Shown: piece by piece, positions 1-34,742 of the stretch | How positions within the stretch are numbered: position 1 is the stretch's first letter | How the letters are laid out: every line of letters starts with the position of its first letter | Source of the DNA: Priapulus caudatus | Lineage: Eukaryota > Priapulida > Priapulimorpha > Priapulimorphida > Priapulidae | DNA length: 40,965 nt | Reading direction: 5' to 3' | Assembly: GCF_000485595.1 (NCBI RefSeq) | Contig: NW_014577166.1 | Location: 112,812-153,776, forward strand | Translations under genes and position numbers: made by a program | Notes under the pieces: generated by a model | What the model was told of the DNA's origin: nothing | The model's input: the letters and a program-made list of their open reading frames with translations, nothing else | Database searches by the model: none

Positions 1-1620
1 CGCTGGGTGCGGGGGGGGTTTGTTCTGGTTCCTGCCTGTGTAGTGGGGGGGGGGTGGATGCCGTTAACGAACCTGCAGTTGATTTTGAGGATGCACGTGT
101 GAGTCGTGGGGATGGCTTCGATATGGGACGCCGTGCACGTGGGTTGGGTTGTCGTTTCGTGCGTTGTCGCATCACTGAAGGCGCTTGTGAGCTGCTCGGA
201 TGTTTCGACAGAGTTCGAAGTTTACGCTTGGCATGGCAAATGTCTGATTTCTTTCGTTTTTCGTTTCGATTTGTCGTGTGCATGACGCAGAAGCGAGTTT
301 GTGTGGGACCACGCGGGTCTGCTTTCCACGGTCCACTTTCGGTTTCTATTCTCTTAGGTTTGTTCTGTGTTTTGAATGAATAATTGTCCTTACACATGCG
401 CATTGTACGTGTTTTATTTTCAACAGGTAATTCTATTCAGTTTCTTAGACTGTTACTATTTATGTATTTGAGTGTCGGCTCACTCCTAGTCATCATAATC
501 ATTGTCTCAGTGCTGTGTGCGTTATTAGAGGTGATAAATGTTTTAGCGATTTTTCATAGACTTTTTGAAAGCTATTTAATTTTGTATGCCTTATAGTCAG
601 ATTTTCTAGTCTCTGCTATAACATTGGATTTCAGTAGTAGTAGTATTTGTTGTTGTAGTTGTTGTGTCTTGAAAGGTAATTGGTTTGCTTTAATTTGTAG
701 TAAATATCTCTCAGAGACCACCTCAACGACGAACCTACCAGGAAGGTACTTGCGATAATTCCGCTGGTTAAACCAGGTTGTAAGAGCTTGCCCTTCTCCT
801 GCTTCGGTTTCAACCAATGGCTCGTTCGGACGTGTGCTTGGACACGCGTCTTTGTCACAGCTAACGCTCTGCCACGCCTTGATCGAAGCATTTTCTAAAC
901 CACGCCTGCTTAGGCACACCGCTGTTTGCTGCTTGCTTTCGTTCTTTATCTGGCACATCCGCATAATTTTCTGCAGGGGAATAACGTCCTATAGCAGATG
1001 TACGTGCAAAAATTTACGCTGTTATTCGTATATATTGCAAAGTTTACATCGAATCTATGCATCGTATTTGTGATGTTATCTGTCGACGTGTTAGTTTTTT
1101 TGTGAGGGAAGAAAATATTTTTGTTGGGCATGTGCAGTGACTCGTTCCGTACGTGGTTATTGTACCGCAAGACATTGTGTTGTTGCTGTTTTGGTTTTGT
1201 CTGGCTGATTTTCAGTTGCCTTGCTGTGAGTTGCAGGTGTTTCGTTTCCATATGCTTACAATATTATTGAACGCAGTAGGTAGAGATTCTAACACCATGC
1301 AGATACTCTTGAAAACGTGTGTTTTTCACTTGAGAATAGCGTGTTGCCTCCAGGAATTGTTATAACGCCTAGCATGGGTGTGTGGTCCATCCTGTACCCC
1401 TCGACGAACGAGACTTGATCTGTGATATGCAGTTTGAAGTTGGGTTTTTTGTGTCATTCCTAACTGGAAGCGTTACGTCTCGGCTTCCCCGCGCGTGCGT
1501 GCCGTGTCGTTCCGTTGTCGTCTGCCGGCGTTTCTCTCTCGTGCGTGTCTCGTGCGTGTGTCTGCCGTGCGTCGCCGTGTCGTCTGCCGTCTCGCTGTCG
1601 TCGTCGTCATTGCCGCGCAG
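1..1620. other. Probable intron or upstream sequence, no supported exon
   Basis: No exon in this stretch has convincing splice sites and a sustained coding pattern. It begins with two G homopolymer runs (around 8-15 and 45-55), becomes AT-rich from about 360 to 1380, and turns GC/TCG-rich just before the first candidate exon. Open frames here have no recognisable composition or motif. Because the vinculin head is absent from the window, this is read as intron of that gene. Confidence 0.5.
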
Positions 1621-1677
1621 GGATCCGGCTGCTGGGACGGAGGTCACTGCCCAAGGTCATGCCGGGGGACTTTGTGG
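1621..1677 (+). CDS. Candidate 57-nt cassette exon, vinculin hinge insert (exon a)
   Basis: A 57-nt open segment with a good acceptor (pyrimidine/TCG-rich tract ending GCGCAG) and a good donor (GTGG then GTGAGC). Read in phase 1 it gives IRLLGRRSLPKVMPGDFVG, a basic peptide I do not recognise. It takes two bases at its 5' end and leaves one at its 3' end, so it is a symmetric phase 1-1 exon that can be skipped without a frameshift. The same phase is shared by every following candidate exon and by the vinculin hinge exon at 16657. The splice sites and phase are seen directly; membership in the vinculin transcript is inferred. Short length makes a chance match possible. Confidence 0.45.
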
Positions 1678-1754
1678 GTGAGCCTGTCGCAGTGTGGGTC
1701 GCCGGCAGCGACTAGGCAGCGAAAACTGCGAGTGCAATGCTCTGTTGCTTTCAG

Positions 1755-1841
1755 CAGCACGGGAGAGGATGAGAGCTGACAGTGCACCCGCCCCTCCTCT
1801 GCCACCGCCTCCACAGCATGTGGCTAGCAGGCCTAAGCAAG
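1755..1841 (+). CDS. Candidate 87-nt proline-rich cassette exon (exon b)
   Basis: The acceptor follows a strong pyrimidine tract (CTCTGTTGCTTTCAG). The donor is weaker (CAAG then GTTAGA). The phase 1 reading starts ARERMRADSAPAPPLPPPP and continues QHVASRPKQ. The APPLPPPP core resembles SH3- or profilin/EVH1-binding polyproline, and its style matches the vinculin hinge exon at 16657 (APPRPPPP). It is 29 codons long and phase 1-1, hence skippable in frame. No domain is visible. An alternative is a first exon of a nested gene, since it contains an in-frame Met (RM), but the upstream acceptor argues for an internal exon. Confidence 0.5.
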
Positions 1842-2997
1842 GTTAGACGTTACCGTAGCGAATGCATCGTGATGCGCTCTGGTCGTCGTGCAGCCATCTT
1901 GATAATCACGCGTTTTTTTCTTATAGAAAATTCTCGTGCTCAACGTACGGTACGAGTGTGTGATATATGGCGTTCATTGAGCAAACATTTTAATAGTCAC
2001 ATCGTGGTATTCGATTATTCGGTATATCTGGATTCATTACTTAATTACTACGAGAGGCTACTGGAATATACCTATGCATGTATTTTATTTTCTTGTCTGC
2101 ATGCTGGAAATCCAAGTCTGTTGAAAGAATTGCAACGAGTAACCTTCGCTTAGCGTATCGATGTGATATTGTCGTATGCGCCCATTCGCCGCAAGTGATT
2201 TCTGTGTGCATGTAATGTTGAACTGACAAGATTCTCTGCATGACGACGTGGTGTTCACTATGATTGGCTCAGCCTGAAGGAGGGAAAGCTCGTGTCCTCC
2301 TAAGACATAAACATCACTGTGCTAATGCAAACTATGCAGTTCTCTACGAATCGAATACGCAGTGCCTTATTCTAGGTCGTATAAATTAAGTATCCATTAA
2401 CGTCATTGACGTTGATTAGCGTGACGCGGTGATGGATGTTGGTTATGTTGCTGATGTCGTGGTAATTGCCGTCGTCGTCGTCGTCGTCGTTTAGTTGCCT
2501 GGTTTAACTACGAACGTGTGATTTATACTGTCTACCGTTCTTACGACCGTACCCATTAATATCATACTCGAGCGTTGTCCTTTTCAGTGTCTTTTTACGC
2601 TTCCCGAACACTAACCGTTTCATTAACAGGTAGACCGTAGTGACCTCGCGTGTGTACGCACGTGCCGCCGGGGTTTGTACCCGTGTCGTCGGTGGCGTCG
2701 TCATCGTCGTCGTCGCCACGTGTTCTGCAGATAACCTCGACCGCTGATCTGTGTGATGCGCTTTCGAAACGCCGCCGTTTTTTGTGCGAGAGCGAACATG
2801 AGTCATCGCTGAGCGTGTGTCGATCCCTGTTGGTGTCGCTGGCTGCTGCCGCTCGTGTTTAGCCGAAAAATGAACCGCGTTGGTTCCCGAGCTGCGCTCC
2901 CCCCCTCCGACGCTCGACTTTCATGAACAGACACATATCGATCGATGCATGTTGTACGCAGCGTGGCGCCACTGACGTTTTAACCCCTGCCGGTCGC

Positions 2998-3029
<32 letters not shown>

Positions 3030-3066
3030 TTAACCAAGCAATAATGTTTTTTACTTTGACGCACAG
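1842..3066. other. Probable intron with trinucleotide repeats
   Basis: AT-rich sequence, then a TCG-rich stretch. It holds a short (GTC)n run near 2470-2493 and a (CCG)n run near 3000-3028 just before the next acceptor. An open frame at about 2729-2862 in another phase has mixed composition and no matching splice sites, so I do not call it coding. Confidence 0.5.
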
Positions 3067-3558
3067 CGCCGCCGCGCGGCAGGAACGGGAGCAGGACGCC
3101 ATCCCCCAACGACAAGCCTCCGCGCCACCCCTCGCCGTCGTCCAGCCCCTCCCCGAAGAGCTCTCCCCTCTTCCAGCATCGGCTGAAGCAGGCGAGGGAA
3201 GAATTCTTCCGAGCAAAGTCCGGCAATCCCGCCAGCGCCAACCCGACGACGTCTCCCCTTCCTCCCGCCGCCGCCCGTGACGACCCGAGGCCGCCGCCGC
3301 CGCCGCTGCCGCCGCCGCCGGCGACCGTGTCGCGAATAGCCGAGTTTACAAAGTCGCTCAGCGAATCGCCGCCGCCGCAGCGCCGCCGGCCGTACAGCCG
3401 CGAGGAGTTTGTGAGCGAGTTTTACGCGAGCATCGGACGCGGGTCGGGTTCCGAGGATGGTGGCGGCGACGGCGGCGCGGCGACGTCGCCCCCCGCGCCG
3501 CGCCGGTCCAGACGCGATTTTAGGTCGGACGACGACGATTGGTCGGCGTTCGAATCAG
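3067..3558 (+). CDS. Pro/Ser-rich exon with short helical segments (exon c)
   Basis: This 492-nt exon opens after an acceptor (TTTTTTACTTTGACGCACAG), with in-frame stops upstream of it. In phase 1 it encodes 164 residues: a Ser/Pro-rich start (RTPSPNDKPPRHPSPSSSPS), a charged, probably helical segment (FQHRLKQAREEFFRAKSG), polyproline (RPPPPPLPPPPATV), SRIAEFTKSLSESPPP, YSREEFVSEFYASIGRG, and an acidic end (SDDDDWSAFES). The chosen donor is CAG then GTGTGG at 3558, leaving phase 1. A stronger-looking GTAAGA lies 11 nt downstream, but it would leave phase 2 and give an early stop in the next exon. The role is unknown; polyproline and TP/SP sites suggest an unstructured scaffold. Coding status is well supported by composition and frame; linkage to vinculin is inferred. 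Confidence 0.72.
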
Positions 3559-4420
3559 GTGTGGGCGAGTAAGATGGAACGCCACTGTGTGTGTGTGTGT
3601 GTGTGTGTGGCGAGCGTGCTTGCTGCCCTTTCCCGGCTTTTTCGCGGTGCCTTTTGCTGCATTGCCGAGAGAGCGAGAGGCGTTGTTATTGCTCTTTTTT
3701 GCGCTCTTCCCCTCTCTCGCTCTCTCGTCAGTTTCTCTTTTGCTTCGCTTGCGTTGTTGCGGAGAGTGAGAGCACTTGTGTCTGCTCTCTCACTCTAGCT
3801 CTCTCTCTCTCTCTCTTGTTATCTTTCTTCCCATCTCTTGCTCTCATGCCGGTTTCTCTTTTTGTCTTCCGTTTTCCCTCGCTATATTGATCTCTCCCCT
3901 TTTACTGTTGGAGTGGCTGCTGCGGTAGTTGTAATTCTGCATCAAAGGAACGACTGCTACAGAAAATTGAACTTGTGCAACAGAGCGATGTACCTTACTA
4001 TGATTTAATTGAATGCTTCCTTCTTTTTGTTTGTATACCTCTTGTAGAATTTATGTTGAAAGTTTGCTTTGGAATTTAATCGTTGCAATTTAGTAAACTA
4101 AACGTTTAGTTTAATTGCATGTGTTTTGAAGGGGCATAAGAGGATCAAGATAATAAATCGGAGGGTACGTAACTCGACTCATTTTAAATTGTTTGGTTTA
4201 AAGTTTCATAATTAAATGTTACATTTTCGTCGATCACTTCTTTTACGCAGCGAAAGTTTTATAGTGCTCTTTTTAATCTGACCACCTTCGGATTCTATAA
4301 TTCATTCAATTCGTTTACTACCGCTCGAATACCCGCTTTGGTCGTCACAGTGAAAATTCGTGAGTTTTCGTTTCTTGCTTCCCTTGTTTAATTTTGCTGT
4401 TCGATCTTCTTGCTCTGTAG
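3559..4420. other. Intron with (TG)n and (CT)n tracts
   Basis: It starts at the candidate donor. A (TG)n run at 3586-3609 is followed by CT-rich stretches to about 3900, then AT-rich sequence leading to the next acceptor. No exon seen. Confidence 0.55.
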
Positions 4421-4549
4421 CAGCAGTTCCTACGCGGCACCCGCATCATCAGCAGCAAGATGAGTCGGTAACCCGCGCTACTGGCCATTCGCACTTTGAA
4501 TCGGCTTACACGAGACCCATTTCCAAATCGTCCCATCTCCAGCAGACAG
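4421..4549 (+). CDS. His/Gln-rich 43-codon cassette exon (exon d)
   Basis: The acceptor is TCTTCTTGCTCTGTAG and the donor ACAG then GTAAAA; both are good. The 129 nt are open in phase 1 and encode AVPTRHPHHQQQDESVTRAT followed by GHSHFESAYTRPISKSSHLQ and QT. It is symmetric (phase 1-1). The peptide is low complexity, rich in His, Gln and Ser, with no recognised domain. Adjacent intron sequence loses the frame. It is likely part of the same transcript as exons c and e. Confidence rests on two good splice sites plus phase agreement, not on homology. Confidence 0.65.
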
Positions 4550-4905
4550 GTAAAACGACGTGCGAAGGGCGGGGCGGCGACGACGACGATCGCGCCGCCT
4601 CTCGATGCACGCACGTTGCCCAATGATTGACAGCTAACCCCCCCTGGGGGCCTCCTCTCGCTGCGGCGGCGGTGTCGACGCTTTGCACGTGTGGCTTGTT
4701 GCGTCGAACCACCCCCCGTGCGAGGGGTAGCGCCCCGTCTCCCCCGCTCCCTCGATAGCCTTCTTACTCGTTCGGCATGTTCACCGCTCGCCGTTAGAAT
4801 GCACGACCCGAGACCTCTTACCTCTCGCATCGTGACACCGACTCGCATGCTATAGCCAGTAGCAGCCGGGAGTAATAGCAATTGAGACTCATCCCAGCTT
4901 GTGTG

Positions 4906-4941
<36 letters not shown>

Positions 4942-5652
4942 GATACATGGCAGCGGTGATTTACGCTGTCCCTTTCGACGGCATGTCCGATCGGTATAAC
5001 CACGCATCTTGGCCTGGTTTCGAAACCACAGCCACTCCATTAGCGACTTGTCGGAATGCTTTAGTGTGAGCAACTCACAACTTTGTTGTCATGCATCGTA
5101 ATTCTCCCCAGCCCCCGTTCTCTCGGGTCTCGTGTCACAGTTTTTGTCGCCAAATCGCGTGTGGCCAAAATAACTCGCATGTGTGTCCCGTTGGCTGCAT
5201 TCCCCATTACCTTCTAGGTGCGGCCCGTTGTCGGGTGCGTTCACTCACCTAGTCCCGGTTGCTGTGAATGTCTAACGTCTTCTGCTAGCTGGGTATTGAC
5301 CGGAAGAACTTAACAGAATGTTGTTTCTGTGGCTTGCTCTTGTGTGGACTGACCTTTTGACCCTTTGATCTTTGTCTGACTGAGCGCTGCATTGTCCTAA
5401 CTGTTATGGCGTGGCATGGATTGCGTAGTTTTCTGTCATCCATTGTTAGTTTTTGAACGATGAATATCCGGATGTTTTTTCGTGCTTCATTTTCTTGAAA
5501 CCCAAACGTATTCCATTCTCATCTGTTTGGCGGTTATGATAAAAATGGAACTGCGTCGCAGGCGGCATTTTTACGACGAATAAACGCGCGACTCGTGTTG
5601 TAGATCACCGACGGATGGTATAAGCACGTTCTTCTTTTCTTCTCTCTTCTAG
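4550..5652. other. Intron with (GTGC)n microsatellite
   Basis: GC-rich at first, then ordinary intron-like sequence. A perfect tetranucleotide run, (GTGC)n, occupies 4901-4940. A pyrimidine tract and TTCTAG close it at 5652. Long minus-strand frames here (4345-5073) read through the microsatellite and are not believed to be genes. Confidence 0.55.
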
Positions 5653-8600
5653 TTCAGAGCGAAAAGCACTCGGAAGCCACTTCTTCCCTTCACTCCGCCC
5701 GCTCTACCAATCCCGCTCCCACCACGCCCAAACGCTCAAGCGAGCCGAGGCCCAAGTCGGCCCTGCCCGCCGACGATTACATTGGCGAGATACTTTGGCC
5801 CGATGAACAGGTGTCGCCCTCTCTGCAGACGCAGCCGGTCAATGCCGGCCTGAGCCCGCGCCGCGACCACCCGGACGCGCACGCGGCGCCCCCTATGCAT
5901 GCGCAACCGGCCAATCCCGGCCTCATCCCGCGCCGCGACCGCCCGGACGCGCACGCGGCGCCCCCTATGCACGCGCAGCCGGCAAATCCTGGCCTCAGCC
6001 CACGCCATGATCACCCACACGCGCAGCCGGCCAATCCCGGCCTCAGCCCGCGCTACGACCGCCCGGACGCGGCCACGTCGCCGACGACGTCGCGTTCGTC
6101 CTACCACACCGAGCTGAAGATCAAGATGAAGCCGGAGAGCCTCAGCGACACGGAGGCGACGAGCAGACGGCAGGCGAGCCACGCGCTCTGGCCGCCGCCG
6201 CAGCAGCAGCAGCAGCAGCGCACCGCATCGGCGGCAAGCCGGGCGACCACTGCGCGCGCCATCAGCGCGCGCCTGCGGTCGACTCCGACGACGACTCCCT
6301 GACGCAGCGCGATGTCGAAGGTCGCGCAGCTGCTCGACGCGGGCCTGCTGCGGCGCTGCCGCACGCTCGACGACGGTGTCGCGGCGGCGACGCGGCGTCG
6401 CCCGAGATCACGGTGCGCTACAAGCGCGAGAAGACGACGCGCAGCACGCGCACCGTACGCGACGGCGTCTCGTCGATAATCAGGAGCACGCCCATTGCCG
6501 CGCCGCCGCCGCGCGCGGAGCAGCCTGCGATCACGTACGAGGCCGCCGAAGAAGCCCGCGGCTCGCCGGCCGCACGCGCAGCCGAAGCAGGAGTGGTTGG
6601 CTGACGATCTCGTCGGACGCTGAGGACGCTCCGTCGATCCAGATCCTGTCGAGCCGCCGGTGGAGAAGTGGTGCCGCCGCGGAAAGAGAAGCCGGTTGAG
6701 AACCGCCGCCGGCCGTCGCCGGAGGATGAGAAGCCGACGATACGCCTCGTGCCGAAGCAGCAGAAGGAGCCGGAGAGAAAGAGGAAGCCGGAGCCTCCGC
6801 CGCCGCAGGCCCGTGGAGGAAGATGATCGTGCCGACGCGCGCGCCCGAGGACGAGCGCCCCGTGACGCGGCCGCGTCGTCGAGGAGCCGCCCGAGGAGGA
6901 GCCGCCCGAGGAGGAGCCGAGAGGAAGCGGAGAGGAGGCGGAAGCCGCACAAGTCCGCACCACACGACGTCGTGAGCACAACGACCGAGGAGCAGATGGC
7001 GTCGTTGTACGATCGCCGCGGCCAAGGGGCGCCGCGGTGGGCCGCCGCCGGGCGGGTCGCCGCCCGCGTGAGCCGATCGACGAGCGGCCCACGCAGGAGC
7101 GGGCGCCCGTGCCAGGAGCGGCCGCCCGAGAGACCCGAGCCGCGCCCGAATCGCCGCCGCGGGTGGAGGGAGCCCCGCGGAGCGCGCACGGCCGCCACAT
7201 GACGTCGGTGACGACGACGGAGGAGACGATGAGCGAACACGAGAGAAGGACGGCGGCAGCAGCAGCAGGCCAGCAGCAGCAGCACCCCATCACGATCCCG
7301 CCGCAGGCGCTCTCTCCGCCGCCCCGCCGCCGGGCGTCGCCGTCGACGACGACGGCCGCGTCAAGATGCCGTTCTACCAATGTCGAGTACGTCAACGGCA
7401 GGATCCACGTGCCCGCTGACGGTGCGTCGAGCTGCAGCCGAGCACACGCATCCGCCCCGCCAGGGGGCGCCGCGCGCCCTGACGACGCCGACGTAGAGGT
7501 CGTCGACCCGCGCAAGTCATCCAACGGAGTATCGCGCGCGGCGACACGCTGGACGCGCGCGCGCTCGCAGTCGATGCCGGCGCAAGGCATCCTGCGCAAC
7601 AGCGCCCGAACCGCCTCGCCGCAGATGGAGCAGCACCACGAGACGCGCGGCACCCGTCACCGAGCCACCGCCACCGCGCGCCGCGACGACGGCGCAGGGC
7701 GCCACGTAGCGTCGGCGACCGTGCGGCGCGCGTCCCCGCCGACGACGACGCGTGGGGGCGCCCACCGGCAGGCGTCGGCGACGCTGCGCCGCGCCCTCCG
7801 CCGCCGGACGACTGGGGGGCGCCACCGTCCGGACGCCGTTCCGCGACGATGCGCGGCGCGGCACTCGTCGGCGACGCGTACGCGGACAGCGCATCGGGGG
7901 CACCGCGCCGCGACCGCAACGCCGCGCCACGGCCGATCAGCCGATGCGACGGCAGCACAGACGGAGCAAGGACTGTTCCGCGAGCAGCGCGGCGCCGGCG
8001 GAGGGAGCGCGCACGGCGCGGCAAGGGACCGTCCGCACGGCGGCGCGGTCGCGCTCGTGCCGGACGAACGCGCCCGCCGCTCCGGCATCGTCGGCGACGC
8101 TGAGATCACGTGCGACTGCCGCGCGGGTCGGGAGAGCACGCAGACAGCAGCGCGCGCAGCCGCTCAGGTGGATCTCCGCGCCTCCGGTGGCGTTCGCCAC
8201 GGCCGCAGCGACCCGCGGAGCGTCCCCGGAGCCGCCGATCATTTTCGACGCACGTCTCGCGCCGCGCGGCCAGCAGGCGGCGCCACCGCATCCCCGCGCC
8301 TTTCTGCCAGAGCAGCAGCCACAGCAGCGCGCACCCCAGCAGGTGGCGCCACAGCAGCGCGCACCCCAGCAGGTGGCGCCGCCGAGGGGTCGCGGCGAGG
8401 AGCGCAGCCGAGAGACGCGGGAGTACGTGTCGACGCAGACGACGAAGTACCGCACGGAGGACGCGCGCCACGCCATCACCGACAACCGCTCGCCGCGCGC
8501 GCCAATCATCTATCGCCGCGACTACTACCCGGACTACATCGTCGACCATCCGATCAACGACCCGTCGCTGCAGCACCGCCCCCGGCCCAAGACGCCCGAG

Positions 8601-11600
8601 ATCACGACGGTGGTGATGACCGCGACCCTGGAGCGAGACAGGCAGCCGGGCGGGCGCCGACCGCGGGAGGTGGTCGAGGTCTCTCCCCCACAGCAACAGC
8701 AGCAGCATCATCATCAGCAGCAGCAGCAGCAGCAGAATCCGACAGCGAACGGCAGCGGGAGCGAGACGAGGTCGTCGTACGCGACGCGACGCGAGACACA
8801 GACGACGACGACCTACAGCGGTCGCGACGCCGGCCGCGGCGACGAACAGGTGGCGCCGCCACCAAAGTCGACGACGCGACCCGTCGAAACGCGGCCGAAG
8901 ACGCTGCCCATCAACGAAAACGTCGACGCGAAAATCTCCAAGCCCGTGCAGGCGTCGCGCGCGCCCGCCCCCCGCGCCGCTGCCGACACGGACGGGGATC
9001 TCACCAGACCTCCTTTCAATGCGGCCGTCGTCGCTGGACAGATACCGGCCGGCGGTCAGCACGAGTCGGATGTGTCGTACGCGCAGCAGCGTAAGTTCAC
9101 GACGGTGACTCGGGAGGAGGAGTACAGCAGCAGCGGCGGCAGCGACGGCGGCGACTCATACTCGGACGAACCGAACACGCTGGAGAGGAACGCTCGTGAC
9201 CGGGAGAGGAAGTCGCTCGCGTACTCGCGCAAGGACTACCCCGCCACCGAGAGCAAGCTCGCCGCAGGGAAGTCTCCGCTAACATCTGCCGCTAAATCCC
9301 CGGTCACATCCGCGGGTAAATCCCCGGTCACATTCGCGGGTAAATCCCCGGTCACATCCGCGGGTAAATCCCCGGTCACATCCGCGGAGATGAAGCCGGA
9401 GAGCCTCAGCGACACGGAGGCGACGAGCAGACGGCAGGCGAGCCACGCGCTCTGGCCGCCGCCGCAGCAGCAGCAGCAGCAGCCACATCGCGGAAAGCCG
9501 GGCGAACACGCGCCGCCGCCGCCGTCGGACTCCGACGACGACTCCCTGACGCAGCCGATGTCGAAGGTCGCGCAGCTGCTCGACGCGGGCCTGCTGCGGC
9601 GCTGCCGCACGCTCGACGACGTGTCCGGCGGCGACGCGGCGTCGCCCGAGATCACGGTGCGCTACAAGCGCGAGAAGACGACGCGCAGCACGCGCACGTA
9701 CCGCGACGGCGTCCTCGTCGATAATCAGCAGCACGCCGCCGCCATTGCCGCGCCGCAGCCGCCGGAGCAGCCTGCGATCACGTACGAGCCGCCGAAGGAA
9801 GCCCCGGCTCCGCCGCCGCCGCCGCAGCCGAAGCAGGAGTGGGTGCTGACGATCTCGTCGGACGCCGAGGACGCTCCGTCGATCCAGATCCTGTCGGACC
9901 CGCCGGTGGAGGAAGCGGTGCCGCCGCGGAAAGAGAAGCCGGTTGAGAAGCCGCCGCCGCCCTCGCCGGAGGATGAGAAGCCGACGATACGCCTCGTGCC
10001 GAAGCAGCAGAAGGAGCCGGAGAGAAAGAGGAAGCCGGAGCCTCCGCCGCCGCAGCCCGTGGAGGAGATGATCGTGCCGACGCGCGCGCCCGAGGACGAG
10101 CGCCCCGTGACGCGGCCCGTCGTCGAGGAGCCGCCCGAGGAGGAGCCGCCCGAGGAGGAGCCGGAGAGGAAGCCGGAGAGGAGGAGGAAGCCGCACAAGT
10201 CGCACCACACGACGTCGGTGAGCACAACGACCGAGGAGCAGATGGCGTCGTTGTACGATCGCCGCGGCCAGGGGGCGCCGCCGGGTGGGCCGCCGCCGGG
10301 CGGGCCGCCGCCGCGCGAGCCGATCGACGAGCGGCCCACGCAGGAGCGGCGGCCCGTGCAGGAGCGGCCGCCCGAGAGACCCGAGCCGCGGCCCGAATCG
10401 CCGCCGCGGGGGAGGGAGCCACGCGGACGCCATGGCCACCACATGACGTCGGTGACGACGACGGAGGAGACGATGAGCGAACACGAGAGAAGGACGCGGC
10501 AGCAGCAGCAGCAGAGCACAGCACCCATCACTGATCCCGCCGCAGGCGCTCTCGCCGCCCTGCCCCTTCCGCCGGGCTGTCCGCCGTCGCACGACGAACT
10601 GGCCGCGTTCAAGATGCCGTGCTACAAGTGTCGAAGCTACCGTCAACGGCCAGCGAATCCACGTGCGCTGGACGTTGCCGCTCGAGCTGCAGCCGAGCAC
10701 ACAGCCCATCCCCCGCCAGGGGGGCGCGCCGCGCGCCCTGACGACGCCCGACGTAGAAGCGTCGTCGACCCGCCCCGCAAGTGTCATCACGGAGTACGCG
10801 CCAGCCGCGGAACACGCTGACGCTCGCTGCGCGCTCGCAGTCGATGAACCGCGCAAGGGCATCCTGCGCACAGCGCCACACAGCCAGTCGCCGCAGATGC
10901 GAGCAGCACACGAGACGCTCGGCTCCGCACCGTTCACCGCAGCCACGCCACCGCAGCCGCCGGCGACGACGCGCAGGGGCGCCACCGTTTAGCGTCTGGC
11001 GGACCTGCGCCGCGTCCCGCCCGACGACGGACGCGTTGGCGGGCGCCACCGCAGCGTCGGGAACCTGCGCCGCGCCCCCGCCGCGACGACTCGGGGGGGC
11101 GCCCACCGTCGGACGACCTTCCGCCGACATGCGCGCGGCACTCCGGTCGCGCGACCGCGTACGCGGACCAGGCACCCGCCCGCGACCCACCGCGCCGCGC
11201 AGCGCGATGTGCTGTATCACGCCAGCCGGCACACGACGGCAGCACGACAGGACGTCGCGGCAGCGCGGCGGCGGCGGAGGGAGCGTCCGCATGTGCGGGG
11301 CGCCGACGCGGCGACCTGTCCGCACGGCCGCCGCGCGCGCGGCCTACGTGCGGACGAACGACGCCGCCGCCTACCGGAGCGTCAGGCGACTCTGAGCATC
11401 CGAGCGATCGCCGCGGTGGGGCAGCGCAGCAGCAGCGCGCGCAAGACCGCTCAGAGTGGATCTCGCGGCCTCCGCGTGGGCGCGCCACCGCGCAGCCGAC
11501 CCGGAGCGTCCCGCCGGAGCCGCCGGATCATTTTCGACGCCACGCTTCTCGCCGCGCGCGGCCAGCAGGCGGCGCCACCGCGTCCCGCGCGCGTTCCTGC

Positions 11601-13513
11601 CAGAGCAGCAGCACAGCCAGCGCGCCCCAGCAGGTGGCGCCACAGCACACGCCGCGCCCAGCAGGTGGCGCCGCCTGAGGCGTCGCGTCCGGTTCGAGCG
11701 CAGCCGAGCAGACGCGCGGAGTACGTGTCGCACGCAGACGACGAAAGTTACCGCACGGAGGACGCGCCGCCACGCCATCACGCGACAACGCTCGCGCGCG
11801 CTGCCATCATCTATCGCCGCGACTAGCTACCCGGCTACATCGTCGACCATCCGATCAACGACCGCGTCGCTGCGAGCAGCCCGCCCCCCGGCCAAGACGC
11901 CGAGATCACGACGGTGGTGCTGATGACGGCTACCCTGGAGCCGAGACAGCGCAGCCGGGCGGGCGCCGACCGCGACGAGGTGGTCGAGGTCTCTCCCCCA
12001 CAGCAACAGCAGCAGCATCATCATCAGCAGCAGCAGCCAGCAGCCGAATCAGACAGCGAACGGCAGCGGAGCGAGACGAGGTCGTCCTACGCGACGCGAC
12101 GCGAGACACAGGACGACGACGACATACAGCAGGTCGCGACGCGGCGGCCGCGGCGACGAGCAGGTGGCCGCCGCCACCAAAGTCGACGACGCGACCCGTC
12201 GAGACGCGGCCAAGACGCTGCCCCCATCAACGAAAACGTCGACGCGGAAAATCGCCAAGCCCGTGCAGGCGTCGCCGCGCGCCGCCCCCCGCCGCGCTGC
12301 GCACACGGACAGGATCTCACCAGACCTCCTTTCAATGCGGCCGTCGTCGCTGGACAGATACGGCCGGCGGTCAGCACGAGTCGGATGTGTCGTACGCGCA
12401 GCAGCGTAAGTTCACGACGGTGACTCGGGGAGAGGCAGTACAGCAGCAGCGGCAGAGCACGGCGGCGACTCATACTCGCGACGACACGAACACGCTGGAG
12501 AGGAACGCTCGTGACCGGAAAGGAAGTCGCTCGCGTACTCGCGCAAGACTACCCGCCCACGAGAGCAAGCTCGCCGCAGGGAAGTTCTCCGCTAACATCT
12601 GCCGCTAAATCCCGGTCACATCCGCGGGTAAATCCCGGTCACATTCGCGGGTAAACCCCGCCATCACGCGAGTAATCGCGTCACCCGCGAGTAAATCCCC
12701 AGTCACATCCGCGGGTTAAATCCCCGGTCACATCCGCGGGTAAATCCCCGGTCACATCCGCGGGTAAATCCCCAGTGACATTCGCGGGTCAATCGGGCGC
12801 CACCGCTACTACCGCCGGTGCCACGACAAAGACGCGAACAGAGATGATGAAAAAGATGACGACGACGACGAAGGGAGCGAGGGAAGGCGGCGTCGCCGCG
12901 GCGACCTCGCCGCCGCTGAGTCGGGAGCCGCTCATCGTGAAGACGGAGGCGGCGGACGCGGAAGCCGCACGAGGGAGGGGACGCGTCAATCACACCGCCC
13001 CCGCCCCTGGAACTTTCCCGTCGCGAGACCGGGACAGCGCCAACAAAGCGCAGACCGCAGTGAACGGGGGCGGGTTTGTCCAGCTGGGGGGAGCGTCGGG
13101 CGACGACTCGAGCATCTACCAGCGGTACACGCAGAAGCGCCGCGGTGGCGGCAGCAGCGGCAGCAGTGGCGGAATCACTAAAACTGTTGTCGTCAACAAG
13201 CAGCGGCGCGACCTAGCGGGCGGCGTGGGCGGCGGCAGCGGCGGCAGCGGCGGCGCGGGCGCAGGCACGGGGCACAACGAGCAGCAGCGAGCGATAGCCG
13301 AGCTGCTGAACGCGTCCGAACACCTGATGCGCGACATGCAGAAGGGACTGAAGACAGACACGCAGACGAGGGCCTCCTCCTCCGCCTCCTCCTCCGCCGC
13401 CAACCGCCAGTCCTCCTCCCTCACTGCGATGAAACGCTCCCACCATACCTCGCAGTCCGTTCCGACGCCCGGAGGTGTAGGAGCAATCGACGCGACGTAC
13501 GCTGTCGATGCAG
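5653..13513 (+). CDS. Giant low-complexity exon with tandem 3.3-kb coding units (exon e), frame broken by apparent assembly errors
   Basis: A 7.9-kb exon between a strong acceptor (TTCTTCTCTCTTCTAG) and a donor GCAG/GTACTG, entering and leaving in phase 1. It would encode about 2,600 residues. Order: a unique start (QSEKHSEATSSLHS...); four 24-residue AQPANPGL repeats; ELKIKMKPESLSDTEATSRR, opening unit 1; the same MKPESL motif opening unit 2 at 9390; a unique end with GGSSG-type glycine runs and a probable helix (EQQRAIAELLNASEHLMRDM). Recurrent features are polyGln, polyPro, RPEPRPE and TSVTTTEE motifs and KSPVTSAG repeats. About 8230-10620 reads cleanly in one frame; 6200-8230 and 10620-12760 jump between frames at small indels absent from the other copy, which suggests raw-read errors rather than a pseudogene. 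No catalytic or globular domain is recognised. A disordered scaffold inserted in the vinculin hinge is inferred; a nested independent gene is possible, since the frame also stops at 13615 if the donor is unused. Confidence 0.75.
5835..6072 (+). repeat. 72-nt tandem repeat, 24-residue AQPANPGL units
   Basis: Inside exon e, about four in-frame copies of a 72-nt unit encode AQPANPGLxPRRDRPDAHAA followed by PPMH. The third copy lacks the DAHAAPPM part, so it is shorter. Copies differ by single residues (Arg/His, Ile/Ser), and there is no frame damage here. Confidence 0.85.
6125..9389 (+). repeat. 3.27-kb coding tandem unit, copy 1
   Basis: It begins with the codons for MKPESLSDTEATSRR and ends with the KSPVTSAG minisatellite directly before the second MKPESL. 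The first half (to about 8230) carries many 1-2 nt insertions and deletions relative to the matching part of copy 2; the second half is clean. Motif order is the same as in copy 2. Confidence 0.85.
9267..9386 (+). repeat. 24-nt minisatellite, five KSPVTSAG repeats
   Basis: Five in-frame 24-nt units (consensus AAATCCCCGGTCACATCCGC plus GGGT) encode KSPLTSAA, KSPVTSAG, KSPVTFAG, KSPVTSAG and KSPVTSAE. Each carries a Lys-Ser-Pro motif, a proline-directed kinase consensus. Confidence 0.92.
9390..12790 (+). repeat. 3.3-kb coding tandem unit, copy 2
   Basis: The start is at the second MKPESLSDTEATSRR (offset 3265 from copy 1). The first 1.2 kb is clean and open. After about 10620 it carries many small indels relative to copy 1. 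It closes with a longer KSPVTSAG-type minisatellite and then the unique 3' end of the exon. Confidence 0.82.
12579..12790 (+). repeat. 24-nt minisatellite, second and longer array
   Basis: About nine units of the same 24-nt repeat as at 9267, several with indels or substitutions (for example one block reads GGTAAACCCCGCCATCACGC). It ends in unique sequence coding for ATTTTAGATTKTRTEMMKKM. Confidence 0.85.
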
Positions 13514-14999
13514 GTACTGATTGTCAGTCGGTGGTGCGCCCGCGTGTAATACCCGGGACCCGCTCCCCTTGCGATGTGCGCTTTTGCGCAACCCCCGTAC
13601 TGCGTGGGCGAATCTGACACCGTGCGGTGGGGTTGTCGGTGGGAGATGCGTCCGCGGTCTTGCACGTGGGGAACGCGCTGATGTACACACATGCCGTTTG
13701 ATGTCTGTTCATGAAAGCATCCTTGCCAAATCACTAATGCTTAAGCTGCTTCGTACGACTAAAACCCCCGATTCCGTGTTTAGTTTACGAAAGCAAGAGA
13801 AAAAGCGCAACGTGGTTTTGTGCTCTGGCTAAACCGCTCGCCGAATCTCGACGAAACGTTTCGGTTTCAGGTTGGCCGTTAACTTTGGATTTTTGGTTGC
13901 AGATCCAAGTTATTTAATCGCTGTTCCGTTGCTCGCTTTTTGCAACGTGTCGCTGCACATTTGCAAGTCGTGTCGTTCGCTATGCGTGTTTTGTTGCGAT
14001 GAAAATGGATCGCGTCGTGAAAGATGGGTACAGAGGGTAAAACTAATTTCGATGGTACACGTTCTCTGTGTGGACACGTACGTATGTTTATCCAGAGCAC
14101 GAAATGTTTGTGCTTGTACGTTCGTACGAGATTCCCCCCCCCAATGTGTGTCTTCTGTGTCTGTGAGATTTTGCCGTTCGTCGCCTCAGGTGGCGTGTGC
14201 GGTATTTTTAATGCTACAGTTGATAGCATTCAGCTGGAAGGATGCACCAGAAGCAAGGTCAGTTTGTTCGTCACGTCGGTATTATTTATCGAAAACCGAT
14301 CGACGGATTGTCTTGGTAATGTGATGGCGGCACTAGTTACCGTTCGCTCTCTGGTCGAGAAGTGCATAGTTTGCGATGATATGTTCTTGGTGACGTCATT
14401 TGCTGGGTCGTGTTCGTGCATGTGGAAGAAGCACCTTGTTTGGGTGGCGTTCGTTGTTTGACGATATGTTACCACGATGCGTGTTTTGTTCTCACCTGTG
14501 AATGCCATGAATGGTTGCCGGCATTGAATTGTAAGTTCCAGTGCGTTTGCGGAAGACCGTGTCAGTTTCTAATGTCCGTTAGGATGCGGTTCTGTAGTGG
14601 CCGTGAGCATACTAACCTCTCCAGTTGTGCAGGAGGTGCTGCTGGCTGAACATAACTGAGCCTGCATTGGCAAGGACGTTCGATACTAATATACACTGTG
14701 TTTTTACCACGACTGTGTGAATTAAACACGAATTGATGTTTTTTTGGCAGCATTGCTTTGTGTTGGTATCGTTATCCACGTCCGTTACCTTTTTCAATGG
14801 TTCATTGACCTTTTTTTCTTCGTGTAACATTCGTCCTAACACCGTAACAGCTTTGATGGTTTCCTTGACTTGTTCACCGAGAAAGTGGATAAGCTGTGAT
14901 TGGTTTTCCCCTATTAACATGATTTTGCGGATGTGTGTATAGCTGTGGGTACTATACGTGGTGAAGGATACTACAATGCGATAATCTCTTAATTTACAG
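13514..14999. other. Intron (or 3' region of a nested gene)
   Basis: If the donor at 13513 is not used, the frame continues 34 codons to a stop at 13615. I see no AATAAA nearby; the nearest ATTAAA is around 14722. The remainder is AT/GT-rich with no strong exon. A 24-nt segment at 14234-14257 has splice-like ends and phase 1-1 but is too short to call. Confidence 0.5.
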
Positions 15000-15029
15000 A
15001 AGCGCCCATAACGGCTGGACATGCCCAAG
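15000..15029 (+). CDS. Candidate 30-nt microexon (exon f)
   Basis: A 30-nt segment between an excellent acceptor (ATAATCTCTTAATTTACAG) and a good donor (CAAG then GTAACT). In phase 1 it reads APITAGHAQ with one base left over, so it is symmetric and compatible with neighbours on both sides. The flanks are plainly intronic. It is too short for homology; the claim rests on the two sites and the phase. Confidence 0.5.
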
Positions 15030-15387
15030 GTAACTCTATTACACTAAATTGTTGGCTGTGTTGATTTCTTCAGTAGTGTGCTTTCCCGGATTTTTTTAAC
15101 CCATAGTATTCTATTTATTTTTGTCAGCTTTTGTGTGTAATTTATCACGTCACGTTGTAGTAGTCATTAGCTTTATGAATTTATATCACATATACTTATT
15201 TTCCATTAACTATTATAACAATTAATTTCAACACCACTGTATTATTTATGTTATGCTTCTTAGCTTTCTCATAGGTTTTGCATTAGTGATCTTAGAATGT
15301 CTTTGTCGTAATTTATTACCTTTCTTTAGGTTTTGTTGTTTCCGTATGACTTTGTTTTTGAGATGTGTATATATTTCACTAATGTAG

Positions 15388-15525
15388 GCCACCAAGCATC
15401 CCCCCAAATATACCACGGATATGGCCCCGACTATGGCAAAGAACAAGACCAGTATGCGCCGCGTGTAATACACAAAGATCAGGGATATTACTCTCAGAAT
15501 TATCCATCCTATGCGAGCTACCATG
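15388..15525 (+). CDS. Tyr/Gly/Gln-rich 46-codon cassette exon (exon g)
   Basis: The exon follows TTCACTAATGTAG and ends CATG then GTAAAC. It is open in phase 1 and symmetric. The peptide HQASPQIYHGYGPDYGKEQD continues QYAPRVIHKDQGYYSQNYPS and YASYH, with nine tyrosines in about 45 residues, resembling prion-like or tyrosine-phosphorylation-prone low-complexity sequence. It is the last cassette before the vinculin hinge exon and joins it in frame (G plus AA gives Glu). The acceptor's pyrimidine tract is only moderate. The antisense open frame across it is hydrophobic but has no other support and is treated as a shadow. Confidence 0.6.
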
Positions 15526-16656
15526 GTAAACTGCTGCGGCAACGTGTGAAAGTTTGCTGAACAGCATGCCAGCTCTCTCTCTCTCTCTCTATCTCCCCTG
15601 TCTGCCTTAAATCTGTCCAGGCAGCCTGAGCGGAAAGCTCAGGGCAATGTGACGCAGGCAATGGATCCTGCTTGTGCGACAGGCTAACACCGGGATGGCA
15701 TGCTGCGAGATTACTGCCGTGTCTGTTGGGAATATGTGTAGTAGCATCTTGGTCATCACCACTTAACCTTGGTACAATCCCGTGTAGAAATCCCAGAGGT
15801 CTGTGCTTGTATTGAACAGGCTGAATCGGTTGCATTGTAGTCCTAATAACATGGCATGCGTCAGGAAGACAATAGAATCTGCATGCGTTTTCCATCTCGG
15901 TCAACAGATGGCAGCACCTATTATTAGTACATTGGTAGTGTAGAGAGACATAACAGGACATGCTGCGGAGACGCATTGGGACGGGATTGGTACTTGTCCA
16001 CGTCGACAATACTACGCGAACTTACTAAAACGGCGGAGCATGATATTTTCGTGTAGATCTCGACGCAGATCTTGTAATGAAGCCATTCTAATCGCATGGT
16101 AGGCTGCTCCGGTAGCCGCAGCTCGTACCTCAGACGAAGCCGTAGCCAGCTCTGAGAGAAGAAGGATTGCCGAATGTCGGCATTCTCTGTGCATGTTAGA
16201 TGTGTTACATGTTATAAGATATTCTAAGCAGATGTTTATACAGGCCGAGTAGAAGACTTGCATGTTTCGCGTTAACATGCAGCGCTGCTCGCAGCATCAA
16301 CGCCCGGATGATTCGCTATAGCTTTCGATTTACAATAGATTGCATATGATCATGATGTGTTTGATGTAGCACGAAGTCGATAAGGCCCCATGTAGATCAC
16401 GGAGATCCGTGTTTGTGTGTTTAATGGCTTCATATATTTCGCTGTATTTTTCTCGATTGTGCAGTTATTTATGAAATAATTCCTTCAATTCCATACATGG
16501 TTGATCTCGCAAGCTTTTAACGACGGTTAATGTAGTGCCACGTTGCAATTTTTTTCAGCGGCCATCTCGTCGCGTTGTAATCGCATCATGTCTCGAGCCA
16601 AATGCAGTGATTTATAAGTTCGATTGGGTTCACACAATGTTGCTCTGGTGTTGTAG
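15526..16656. other. Intron, nothing recognised
   Basis: A short (CT)n run lies at 15573-15591. Minus-strand open frames at 15518-16009 and 16012-16278 show no recognisable motif or coding bias and are not called. A CTGAGC/GCTCAG mini-hairpin sits near 15626-15645. Confidence 0.5.
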
Positions 16657-16790
16657 AAGACTCGGCCGCGCCGCCGCGGCCACCACCACCAGGGGGAGCT
16701 TTCCCGCCACCGAGACCGCCGCCGCCGGAGACTGACGATGAGGATGAGATGGTGCATTTCCCTGCCCCGCAGGCGAACCAGCCCATCATG
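16657..16790 (+). CDS. VCL: Vinculin, proline-rich hinge exon
   Basis: Encodes the end of the vinculin hinge: DSAAPPRPPPPGGAFPPPRP, PPPETDDEDE and then FPAPQANQPIM. This parallels the vertebrate vinculin hinge (APPKPPLPEG...VPPPRPPPPEEKDEE...INQPM). The hinge links the autoinhibitory head to the tail at integrin and cadherin adhesions. It is where SH3 proteins (vinexin/ponsin family) and EVH1 proteins bind; FPPPRPPPP is a candidate site. The exon starts after TTGTAG in phase 1 (an acceptor three bases further on is also possible) and ends in phase 0 at the ATG before GTAACC. The phase 1 entry is what makes all upstream cassettes compatible. No head-domain exon occurs in the window. Confidence 0.93.
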
Positions 16791-16958
16791 GTAACCGTAG
16801 CAACTGCATGCTTGGGTTAATGAGATGAATCGGACACATGCAACAATTAAAGCGTCCAAACGATCGCATCCACTCCTTACACAATTGGTGGGGGGGGGGG
16901 CAGATTACAATATCACAGATTAATAGCTAACGTTTTTACTGACTTTCTACTACACTAG

Positions 16959-17074
16959 ATGGCAGCACATTCACTCCATCAAGAAGCGAAGCAATGGTCG
17001 AGCAGAGACAATGAGATCATTGGTGCAGCAAAACGCATGGCCATTCTGATGGCAAGACTCAGTCAACTCGTAAG
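16959..17074 (+). CDS. VCL: Vinculin tail exon, helix 1 region
   Basis: Translates as [20 protein letters not shown] followed by [18 protein letters not shown]. This matches the conserved start of the vinculin tail bundle (AARQLHDEARKWSSKGNDII...AAKRMALLMAEMSRLVR in vertebrates). The acceptor is CTACACTAG, the donor AAG then GTAACG; the last Arg codon is split with the next exon (phase 2). In vertebrates the muscle metavinculin insert enters right after the WSSK motif. Here WSSR lies mid-exon, with no intron at that place, so a metavinculin-type exon at the classical site is not evident in this gene. Confidence 0.95.
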
Positions 17075-17354: not shown

Positions 17355-17478
17355 AGGTGAGGGTGGTTCCAAGAAGGACCTGATCGCTTGTGCCAAGGCC
17401 ATCGCTGATGCTTCCGAGGAGGTGACAAGGCTTGCCAAGGAGCTGGCACGTCAGTGTACGGACAAGCGTATGCGAATG
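17355..17478 (+). CDS. VCL: Vinculin tail exon, helices 2-3
   Basis: Reads [40 protein letters not shown] and M, after completing the split Arg codon. The [20 protein letters not shown] stretch is nearly identical to the family signature in the tail, which forms part of the five-helix bundle that binds F-actin and acidic lipids. The exon is flanked by TTTTGTAG and GTAAGA and ends in phase 0. Length and sequence agree with the canonical tail. Confidence 0.96.
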
Positions 17479-17771: not shown

Positions 17772-17862
17772 AATCTGCTACAAGTGTGTGAGCGAATCCC
17801 AACGATTGGAACACAGCTGAAGATTCTGTCTACAGTGAAAGCCACTATGCTTGGTGCACAAG
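17772..17862 (+). CDS. VCL: Vinculin tail exon, helix 4
   Basis: Encodes [20 protein letters not shown] then [10 protein letters not shown], with one extra base (phase 1). [11 protein letters not shown] and [14 protein letters not shown] are highly conserved vinculin tail blocks, the latter contributing to F-actin binding. The GAQ ending is of the type I associate with invertebrate vinculins, where vertebrates have GRTN. The acceptor is GTGATTTTTCAG and the donor AAG/GTACGT. The next constitutive exon at 21000 continues in phase 1, with a possible cassette between. Confidence 0.96.
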
Positions 17863-18945: not shown

Positions 18946-18990
18946 AGATGATGCCATTGAGTCCAGATGGGAGTGAGATAACTGGCGATG
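18946..18990 (+). CDS. VCL: Putative 45-nt alternative exon in the vinculin tail (H4-H5 loop)
   Basis: Between the exons ending 17862 and starting 21000, both phase 1, lies a 45-nt open segment with acceptor GTTTGGTTGACAG and donor GATG then GTAAAA. It takes two bases, leaves one, and adds EMMPLSPDGSEITGD before the conserved [11 protein letters not shown]. Because it is symmetric, skipping it restores the usual GAQ-G-SEEDQ junction seen in the family, so alternative splicing is likely if the exon is real. It would lengthen the loop between helices 4 and 5 and add an SP phospho-site. This is distinct from the vertebrate metavinculin insert, which lies before helix 1. Both splice sites are moderate. 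Confidence 0.55.
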
Positions 18991-20999: not shown

Positions 21000-21166
21000 G
21001 TTCCGAGGAAGACCAGGAGGCGACGGAGATGCTGGTGGGAAATGCCGAGAACCTCATGCACTCGGTCAAGGAGACGGTGCGAGCGGCCGAGGCCGCCTCC
21101 ATCAAGATACGCACGGACTCCGGCTGCAGGCTGCGCTGGGAGCGCAAGCCCGCATGGTACCACTAA
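21000..21166 (+). CDS. VCL: Vinculin terminal coding exon (helix 5 and C-terminal hairpin)
   Basis: Encodes [40 protein letters not shown] and [14 protein letters not shown], then TAA. This is the conserved vinculin helix 5 plus C-terminal arm. The Arg-Lys pair of the lipid-binding tip (Arg1060/Lys1061 in human numbering) and the penultimate Tyr (Tyr1065, a Src site in vertebrates) are kept; the last residue is His instead of Gln, and Thr-Pro before the final Trp is Pro-Ala. The acceptor is CTGCTCGTAG in phase 1. The stop agrees with the family C-terminus to within a residue, so the gene is intact at its 3' end. Confidence 0.97.
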
Positions 21167-27793: not shown

Positions 27794-28455
27794 ATGTCAT
27801 TTTTGAAGAGATGATCATGAGTAATTGTACTTACGCCTGTAATATACCCCTAGGGCTAGGGCCACTACAATATTAATAATTGTGAATGGCCACTAATTCA
27901 CCCCATTAATACGTACCACGTATACCACTATAGTTTTGTGTTCATGGGGTCTATGGGTTCTGTCAATGTGTGTGTGCTTGCATGTATTTGTGGGTAGTAC
28001 GTAGTGGTACGTATAGTCACTATAGCTCATAGGGTCTATGTCCCCCAGGGTACTGCCGGAACGTACCCTGGGTACGGTCCGGTATACCGGAACGTACCCT
28101 GGTCACTATTTGTTATGGTTAGGGTTAGGCACGGCATATTAGATAGTACCAGGGTACGTTCCGGTATACCGGACCGTACCCAGGGTACGTTCCGGCAGTA
28201 CCCCGGGGGACATAGACCCTCTCAGCGTCACTATACGTACCACTACGTACTACCCACAAATGTGTATGCAAGCACACACACATTGACAGAACCCATAGAC
28301 CCCATGAACACAAAACTATAGTGGTACACGTGGTACGTATTAATGGGGTGAATTAGTGGCCATTCACAATTAATAATATTGTAGTGGCCCTAGGCCTTGG
28401 GGGATATTTCAAGGGTAAATTCCATTAATCATGGTCAATTCTTCCAAAATGACAT
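27794..28455. mobile_element. Large foldback element, left copy
   Basis: The sequence from ATGTCATTTTTGAAG at 27794 is repeated in reverse complement up to 28455 (…CTTCCAAAATGACAT), with arms of about 310 nt. The inner arms are near-identical, and include two GTACC-rich motifs (CCGGAACGTACCCTGG and relatives). The outer 140 nt have diverged. The loop at about 28108-28145 carries GGTTAGGGTTAGG. Short open frames inside (YVPQGTAGTYPGYGP…) arise from the GTACC motifs. It is interrupted by the N gap at its right end. Confidence 0.85.
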
Positions 28456-28465
28456 NNNNNNNNNN
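28456..28465. other. Assembly gap (10 Ns)
   Basis: Ten Ns, a fixed-size scaffold gap. The sequences on both sides are reverse complements of each other right up to the gap. Confidence 0.99.
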
Positions 28466-28989
28466 ATGTCATTTTGGAAGAATTGACCATGATTAATGGA
28501 ATTTACCCTTGAAATATCCCCCAAGGCCTAGGGCCACTACAATATTATTAATTGTGAATGGCCACTAATTCACCCCATTAATACGTACCACGTATACCAC
28601 TATAGTTTTGTGTTCATGGGGTCTATGAGTTCTGTCAATGTGTGTGTGCTTGCATACACATTTGTGGGTAGTACGTAGTGGTACGCATAGTGACGCTGAG
28701 AGGGTCTATGTCCCCCGGGGTACTGCCGGAACGTACCCTGGGTACGGTCCGGTATACCGGAACGTACCCTGGTACTATCTAATATGCCGTGCCTAACCCT
28801 AACCATAACAAATAGTGACCAGGGTACGTTCCGGTATACCGGACCGTACCCAAGGTACGTTCCGGCAGTACCCTGGGGGACATAGACCCTATGAGCTATA
28901 GTGACTATACGTACCACTACGTACTACCCACAAATACATGCAAGCACACACACATTGACAGAACTCATAGACCCCATGAACACAAAACT
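28466..28989. mobile_element. Foldback element, mirror copy right of the gap
   Basis: 524 nt that are the reverse complement of 27932-28455, with a handful of single-base differences. The match stops abruptly after CACAAAACT at 28989, so the outer 138 nt present in the left copy are missing here. Confidence 0.9.
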
Positions 28990-33665: not shown

Positions 33666-34062
33666 TGTGACTTCAGTATATCAATGCAATCACGCATATA
33701 GATACATTGGCACTCAATCAACACTAGTCATCATGTACTTCAGTCGCACTTGAGGTGGCCAAATCTTGTGTTATGTTAAAGGGCCGGACACACTAGGCGA
33801 TTTAAATCGGGGCACTAAATCGGGCGACTCACATTCCGCGCCGGATTCGTCCGCCCCCCCCCCCCCCGCTCCGATTTCGTCGCCGATTTAATCGACCATA
33901 GATCAAAAACGCTTTTTGATATTATCGGTGCGATTTAGTCGCCGATTTAGTCGCCGATTTAGATCGCCTAGTGGATCTCGCGAGGCCGGCGATAAATCGC
34001 CAGCGTTGTTCAATGAACTGTACGTAATAGCGATGTTTATGTTTAGTATGTCATGTCATGCT

Positions 34063-34711
34063 AATAGCAATGCCACGCACGCAACGGCACGTGTACGTGC
34101 ATCACGCACGCAACGCACGCCTGTACGTGCAACACGCCACGCACGCTATGCACGCACGTCGTACGTGCCACACGCCCACGCCGCACGTCACGCTGCACAT
34201 GGCACTGCCACGCCACGTACGCACGGTGCTACCTGCCACACACACACGCACGCACGTACGCAGCACTGCACACATGCACACACGTGTAACCTGCACACCG
34301 CACCACGCACCGCACGCACGCACCACATGCAGCACACGTGCACACGCACGCACGCACCACATGTACGCACGTGTAAGTGCACACCGCACCACGCCCCTAC
34401 GCGCGCTTACGAACGCACCGTGTACGCTACACACGCACGGCACGCACGCCCCACGCACGCACGCACGCACGTGCTTACTTGCCACACCGCACGCAACGCC
34501 CACGGCACTGCTGCGGCACGTGTTACGCTGCTCACACGCCACACATATCGTCACGCACGTGTTACGCACGCGCACGCACGCCACCGTACGCCACGTATAC
34601 CGTGCACACGCACGCTTCTACACACGCACGCACACACGCACGCACTGCACGCCACGTTTTACATACACACGCACGCTCGACACATTTAATGCACGCAGGT
34701 GTACGTTCACA

Positions 34712-34742
<31 letters not shown>

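Follow-up and report, generated by a model that had tools for sequence, protein, structure and literature searches.

The window analysed here, a stretch of 40,965 nucleotides (nt) of the priapulid Priapulus caudatus (RefSeq assembly GCF_000485595.1, contig NW_014577166.1, positions 112,812 to 153,776 of the forward strand), contains the 3' half of a vinculin gene, with the exons for the hinge and the tail. The C-terminal tail is recognized by the Pfam family PF01044 (Vinculin) with an E-value of 2.6e-93 (314 bits, compared with a cut-off of 38.1), and chicken and human vinculin chains from the PDB match the hinge and tail exons with E-values down to 1.9e-90. The best 120 of the 2,311 protein matches are mostly arthropod vinculins, with 60-85% identity across the matched part of the query. 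The translated proline-rich hinge, APPRPPPPGGAFPPPRPPPPETDDEDE, encoded by positions 16657-16790, aligns with the solved vinculin chains as well. The exons assigned to this part of the gene, in window coordinates, are the following:

16657..16790, + strand: vinculin hinge exon (PPRPP), entered in phase 1 and left in phase 0; PDB and Pfam matches
16959..17074, + strand: vinculin tail exon; PDB match and splice-site ranking
17355..17478, + strand: vinculin tail exon; PDB match and splice-site ranking
17772..17862, + strand: vinculin tail exon, left in phase 1; PDB match and splice-site ranking
21000..21166, + strand: last vinculin tail exon, containing the stop codon; PDB match and splice-site ranking

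A first-pass annotation of this DNA had reported that the hinge exon at 16657 is entered in phase 1, which its borders and phase bear out, and had placed in front of it seven exons that all enter and leave in phase 1. We consider it somewhat more probable than its negation (a probability of roughly 0.55) that additional cassette exons in phase 1, including a giant one, indeed belong to the vinculin hinge and are spliced into the vinculin message; the location of the candidates, their phase and the precedent in related animals favour such an assignment. The candidates are these:

1621..1677, + strand: doubtful candidate for a hinge exon of 57 nt, phase 1 at both ends; both sites rank first, the frame score is the best of three, all three frames are open
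1755..1841, + strand: doubtful candidate for a proline-rich hinge exon of 87 nt, phase 1 at both ends; phase 1 is the only open frame, the donor ranks first and the acceptor third
3067..3558, + strand: likely cassette exon of the hinge, 492 nt, rich in proline and serine, phase 1 at both ends; both sites rank first, strict candidate, single open frame
4421..4549, + strand: likely cassette exon of the hinge, 129 nt, phase 1 at both ends; both sites rank first, strict candidate, single open frame, frame score not decisive
5653..13513, + strand: candidate for a giant exon of the hinge, its frame broken in the sequence as it stands; phase 1 in with a strong acceptor (10.7), phase 1 out with a weak donor (0.8)
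15000..15029, + strand: candidate 30-nt microexon, phase 1-1, doubtful; both sites rank first, length not beyond chance
15388..15525, + strand: plausible hinge exon of 138 nt, rich in tyrosine, phase 1 at both ends; the donor ranks first and the acceptor second

AG and GT borders are present at 1621-1677, 1755-1841, 3067-3558, 4421-4549, 15000-15029 and 15388-15525, together with the AG at 5653 and the GT after 13513. When the splice sites in the stretches around the claimed ones were ranked by score alone, with consensus weights, the claimed donor came first in all seven candidates, each giving phase 1 out. The claimed acceptor was top-ranked in five of the seven, and the best acceptor gives phase 1 in six; the top acceptor for exon 1755 is 1758, also in phase 1, and that for exon 15388 is 15330, which is not in phase 1. 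In the known hinge and tail exons, which served as a control, donors ranked first in four cases of four and acceptors in three of five. The last letter of each of the seven candidates is G; every one of the seven junctions in the chain has a GNN codon, and these codons read A, A, A, V, E, G and E.

A scan for exons with the same weights, covering positions 22-16656 of the + strand and 1-16656 of the minus strand, returned in the range of 121-700 nt at strict thresholds only 3067-3558 and 4421-4549 on the + strand, both phase 1-1. The strict scan of the minus strand gave no candidate of this size, and antisense coding was rejected on this ground. At looser thresholds, symmetric candidates of 24-60 nt numbered seven on the + strand, in all three phases, and none on the minus strand, so that the 57- and 30-nt exons may be due to chance; the minus strand yielded nine open candidates of 24-700 nt or more at these thresholds, and therefore short exons prove little. 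Of the seven candidates put forward originally, the two strict ones are likely exons, and the 57- and 30-nt ones do not rise above chance. By codon-position composition, the claimed frame is the best in five of nine upstream segments (1621, 3067, 5653-6125, the core 8236-10532 and 12761-13513), with exon 3067-3558 scoring -1.4 compared with -46.2 and -18.2 for the other frames. As context for the tyrosine-rich exon 15388-15525, 113 of 143 vinculins have a tyrosine among the 20 residues that precede PPRPP, a raw count taken without a background rate.

Alternative exons at the same boundary are also predicted in relatives. Cassette exons located directly before the PPRPP hinge exon are present in some predicted isoforms from crayfish, ants, bees, wasps and a stick insect; in the crayfish, isoforms of a single gene differ by cassettes between ...SLSLN and DQAPPRPP, with the linker ranging from 62 to 192 residues. 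The comparison of 72 pairs of isoforms differing by at least five residues, from 24 species groups (mostly Hymenoptera and non-independent, with isoforms that are gene predictions), gave 29 insertion events in 16 groups, and after eight ambiguous events were set aside, 19 distinct ones were left. Phase-1 exons ending in G restrict the residue at every junction to V, A, D, E or G, and both junction residues fit this phase-1 G|NN rule in 16 of the 19 events; of the three misfits, those of crayfish and crab precede the hinge and fall in the last helix of the head, and the third comes from a sea urchin. If only the hinge events are counted, 16 of the 17 scorable junctions fit, with V, A, D, E and G accounting for 31% of the hinge letters. 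Taken with the GNN junctions in the window, this isoform rule supports the phase argument from outside the window. The arthropod cassettes, exemplified by the predicted isoforms of Procambarus clarkii, resemble the candidates in lying directly before the PPRPP exon on the same strand, in junctions that fit phase-1 G|NN and in disordered content. The candidates, in turn, share with them phase 1 at both ends and GNN junctions, except that the giant one is 1 mod 3 in length as sequenced. The difference lies in size: the arthropod cassettes add approximately 9-130 residues, compared with about 1,500 to 2,600 for the giant candidate.

The first-pass statement that known vinculin hinges are tens of residues long is too narrow. 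Hinge length, determined by pattern and including the PPRPP exon, was measurable in 122 of the 150 vinculins fetched, with a median of 98.5 and a range of 58-777 residues, and hinges of 438-777 residues exist in copepods, a clam and echinoderms. The hinges longer than 400 residues are those of the unnamed JGI protein P0126 (777), Tigriopus (689), Mya arenaria (650), the sea cucumbers Holothuria (605) and Apostichopus (604), Lepeophtheirus (501) and Strongylocentrotus (S.) purpuratus (438). All these proteins, which were compared at the protein level, retain the head and the tail joined by a long low-complexity linker with no significant similarity to the insert in the window. Judging from these sequences, long disordered hinges are a recurrent feature in several phyla. 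A search restricted to proteins of approximately 1,268-4,035 residues found 30 with a vinculin tail; P0148 (2,579 residues), one of the 28 vinculins with unmeasured hinges, has its extra length after the tail. In the open-licence literature, in the portions accessible, no description of long or alternatively spliced invertebrate vinculin hinges was found.

Several observations weigh against the assignment of the upstream exons to the vinculin hinge. The entry frame of 5653-13513 meets 16 stops and the length of this exon, 7,861 nt, is 1 mod 3; the borders and donors of the reported chain are confirmed (seven of seven with phase 1 out), but its largest member is not open as sequenced, and the donor of this member, at 13513, is weak (0.8, compared with 0.5 for a phase-0 competitor at 13533). 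The claimed frame is not the best by composition in four of the nine segments (1755, 4421, 15000 and 15388). The head of vinculin lies outside the window, so that the placement of the candidate exons inside the gene assumes that the head is encoded further upstream. The reported lack of a head exon before the hinge exon agrees with a tblastn search with 120 vinculins (E<0.01), which detected no head exon in the window: only two of the 729 matches are restricted to residues below 740, both weak (E-values of 0.003 and 0.005), and although 34 of the 144 upstream matches start before query residue 740, the best six, when viewed, were proline-rich matches. No relative of the insert was detected, either: none of the 7,967 candidates scored in a search with the composite insert reached E<=0.001, Pfam gave nothing at E<=0.1 for five upstream pieces, the PDB gave nothing at E<=0.1 for the long open frame P0001 described below, and local alignment of eight pieces of the insert with the hinges of 135 vinculins produced nothing convincing. 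In the most favourable of these alignments, three of 60 shuffles were as good, and the tyrosine-rich 15388 piece scored worse than all 60; known hinges also diverge strongly among themselves. Finally, no hinge longer than 777 residues was found, although the search admitted proteins of up to about 4,035 residues. The attribution of these exons to the vinculin hinge draws support from the cassettes that relatives carry at the same boundary, with 16 of 17 junctions fitting G|NN, whereas the broken frame of the giant exon and an insert with no detectable relative speak against it.

The frame of the giant candidate is broken because of a tandem duplication whose copies differ mostly by 1-nt insertions and deletions (indels). 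Its parts are as follows:

6124..9387, + strand: copy 1 of the duplicated unit, clean over 8238-9387 and noisy to the left
9388..12714, + strand: copy 2 of the duplicated unit, clean over 9390-10532 and noisy to the right
7710..10820, + strand: 1,036-codon open frame spanning the copy junction (P0001); ends in noisy sequence

The two copies are adjacent direct repeats with 86.8% identity and 191 gap openings; in a second alignment, 164 of the 195 gaps are 1 nt long and the mismatches are spread over the codon positions (7/7/12 and 15/11/20). Per 200 bases, the copies diverge by 2-14% in their outer parts and by 19-29% in the middle (7324-8324), where the G+C content is 74-79%. The simplest reading of this pattern is that the outer parts pair one clean copy with one raw copy and the middle pairs two raw copies, and the differences look like a raw long-read signature. 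The clean core, 8238-10532, is strongly coding in the entry frame (frame score of 96.4, compared with -213.9 and -195.8), and the noisy arms each match the clean protein in two frames, which makes the breaks look like indel error. The entry frame (codon start 5655) differs from the exit frame (12676-13617). Clean coding sequence with consistent frames is found at the entry (5653-6125), at the copy junction and at the end (12763-13513). The clean border between the copies suggests that accurate reads cross it and that the duplication is real. A 24-bp tandem array, translated as KSPVTSAG repeats in the coding frame, closes both copies (9282-9387 and 12595-12794). The giant exon would then be about 4.5 kb long with one unit or 7.9 kb with two. 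The insert of about 2,900 residues proposed initially is matched by the two-unit sum of all candidates, 2,931 residues, but falls to 1,822 with one unit (both sums include 29 residues from the doubtful 57- and 30-nt exons), and the frame behind it is broken and duplicated in this assembly.

By charge and hydropathy, all seven clean pieces of the insert fall on the disordered side, piece 12763-13512 barely so (0.430 vs 0.432), whereas the tail and transporter controls fall on the ordered side. The arthropod hinge motifs PxDMSxL, DFxxIF and YQGIxLP have no match on the + strand of 1-16800 besides one chance match resembling IFxxDF at 15336 and one match to [DE][DE]x[IL]F at 1108. The clean pieces 8238-10532 and 12763-13513 (1,172 residues) contain three TQT tripeptides compared with 0.6 expected, a number that 2% of shuffles reach. 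These tripeptides resemble LC8-binding motifs, a lead only.

Three other explanations of the upstream sequence have to be considered. An unlikely one is that a long intron of vinculin harbours, on the same strand, an independent nested gene encoding a disordered product, with a last exon that runs through 13513 to the stop at 13615. The exit frame is indeed open to this stop, 102 nt past the weak donor, the insert is unlike any known vinculin hinge, and polyadenylation-like hexamers are present, ATTAAA at 14721 and AATAAA at 4152 and 5579, between exons of the chain. Yet, a nested gene would be free to differ from the phase of the hinge, whereas the best donors of all seven candidates exit in phase 1; moreover, there is no AATAAA in the 3 kb after 13615 (none between 13615 and 17000), and the cassette exons of relatives occupy the very same boundary.

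Still less probable, in our estimate, is an assembly error: gap filling would have put the giant frame or its duplication in the wrong place or doubled it, and the real locus would contain a single unit or no unit at all. The indel signature of raw reads in both copies is compatible with such an origin, and so are other irregularities of the window. A gap of 10 N at 28456-28465 has mirrored flanks (27932-28989), 519 of the 524 bases on the left matching the reverse complement of the right, which probably reflects either a fault of scaffolding or a long inverted repeat, and the noisy, GCAC-rich direct repeats 34000-34736 and 35207-35967 (69.5% identity, 60 gap openings) are possibly another raw long-read fill. 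Against this possibility speak the clean, coding and frame-consistent stretches at the start of the exon (5653-6125), at the junction of the copies and at the exon end (12763-13513); the clean state of the junction suggests that it is spanned by accurate reads. The least probable of the three is that the giant exon is a decayed or unused relic, with vinculin splicing the head to 16657 directly or using the short exons only, as might be surmised from the frame breaks and from the prevalence of short hinges (median of 98.5 residues). However, the breaks cluster in the noisy arms, whereas the clean core, entry and end retain a strong codon structure, and the preponderance of 1-nt gaps (164 of 195), with mismatches over all codon positions, points to sequencing error rather than decay.

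Giant coding cassette exons have precedents in other cytoskeletal adaptors: the available portions of PMC10901741 and PMC12202978 describe them in ANK3 (a 7.8-kb exon), ANK2, MAP2, MAP4, MAPT, NIN and CLIP1, and vinculin is not mentioned in these portions. The ANK3 exon is in-frame, is of nearly the same size as the candidate in the window (7.8 kb compared with 7.86 kb) and likewise belongs to a linker of membrane and cytoskeleton, whereas inclusion of the window exon in the mRNA is putative; no homology between the two inserts is claimed. In metavinculin, too, an alternative exon lengthens the head-tail region, but that insert follows ...WSSK at the end of the hinge, whereas the extra exons in the window precede the PPRPP exon. 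An insert of the metavinculin type was ruled out by position, the ...WSSK stretch lying within exon 16959-17074 with no intron.

Further downstream, the window contains one more possible alternative exon of vinculin:

18946..18990, + strand: candidate alternative 45-nt tail exon, phase 1-1; borders read by eye

Two crustacean isoforms (P0074 and P0109) have extra residues at the matching position. Beyond vinculin, on the same strand, the coding sequence of a transporter of the OATP family starts with the exon at 39772-40449 (PF03137, E = 7.3e-52).

If the hinge cassettes are real, the upstream exons would be spliced into vinculin, probably in some tissues only, and the product would keep the head that binds talin and catenin and the tail that binds actin. 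The two would be linked by approximately 1,820 or 2,930 disordered residues rich in P, Q, R and T, compared with the approximately 60-200 residues that are usual in arthropod relatives. With 0.38 nm of chain contour per residue, the computed contour length would increase from 37 nm for 98 residues to 0.7 or 1.1 micrometres for 1,822 or 2,931 residues, and the mean end-to-end distance from 6 nm to 26 or 33 nm. The computed entropic stiffness would drop from 0.343 pN/nm to 0.0186 or 0.0115 pN/nm, a softening by a factor of about 18 to 30. According to the accessible part of one study, the persistence length of such linkers is 0.48 nm, and engineered insertions between the vinculin head and tail showed that loading is extension-controlled, with force proportional to the stiffness of the sensor (PMC6053308). 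Under such loading, the softer giant hinge would bear little force; instead of working as a stiff clutch, it may provide a tether of long reach under low force and a scaffold with docking sites. The linker of human vinculin binds Arp2/3, as stated in the available part of PMC11568829.

On these grounds, we tentatively propose, at somewhat less than even odds, a 'giant vinculin', an isoform, made in particular tissues, whose disordered hinge of 1.8 to 2.9 thousand residues comes from a single giant cassette exon that was enlarged by in-frame tandem duplication, and which serves as a long, soft tether and scaffold, a counterpart of giant ankyrin-G. Vinculin is a standard model of force transmission, and if the proposal is correct, the length of the hinge would be a mechanical setting that is tuned by splicing and open to evolution across invertebrates. 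With natural hinges ranging from approximately 60 to 777 residues, and perhaps to thousands in Priapulus, the family would represent a natural experiment in linker length carried out via alternative splicing.

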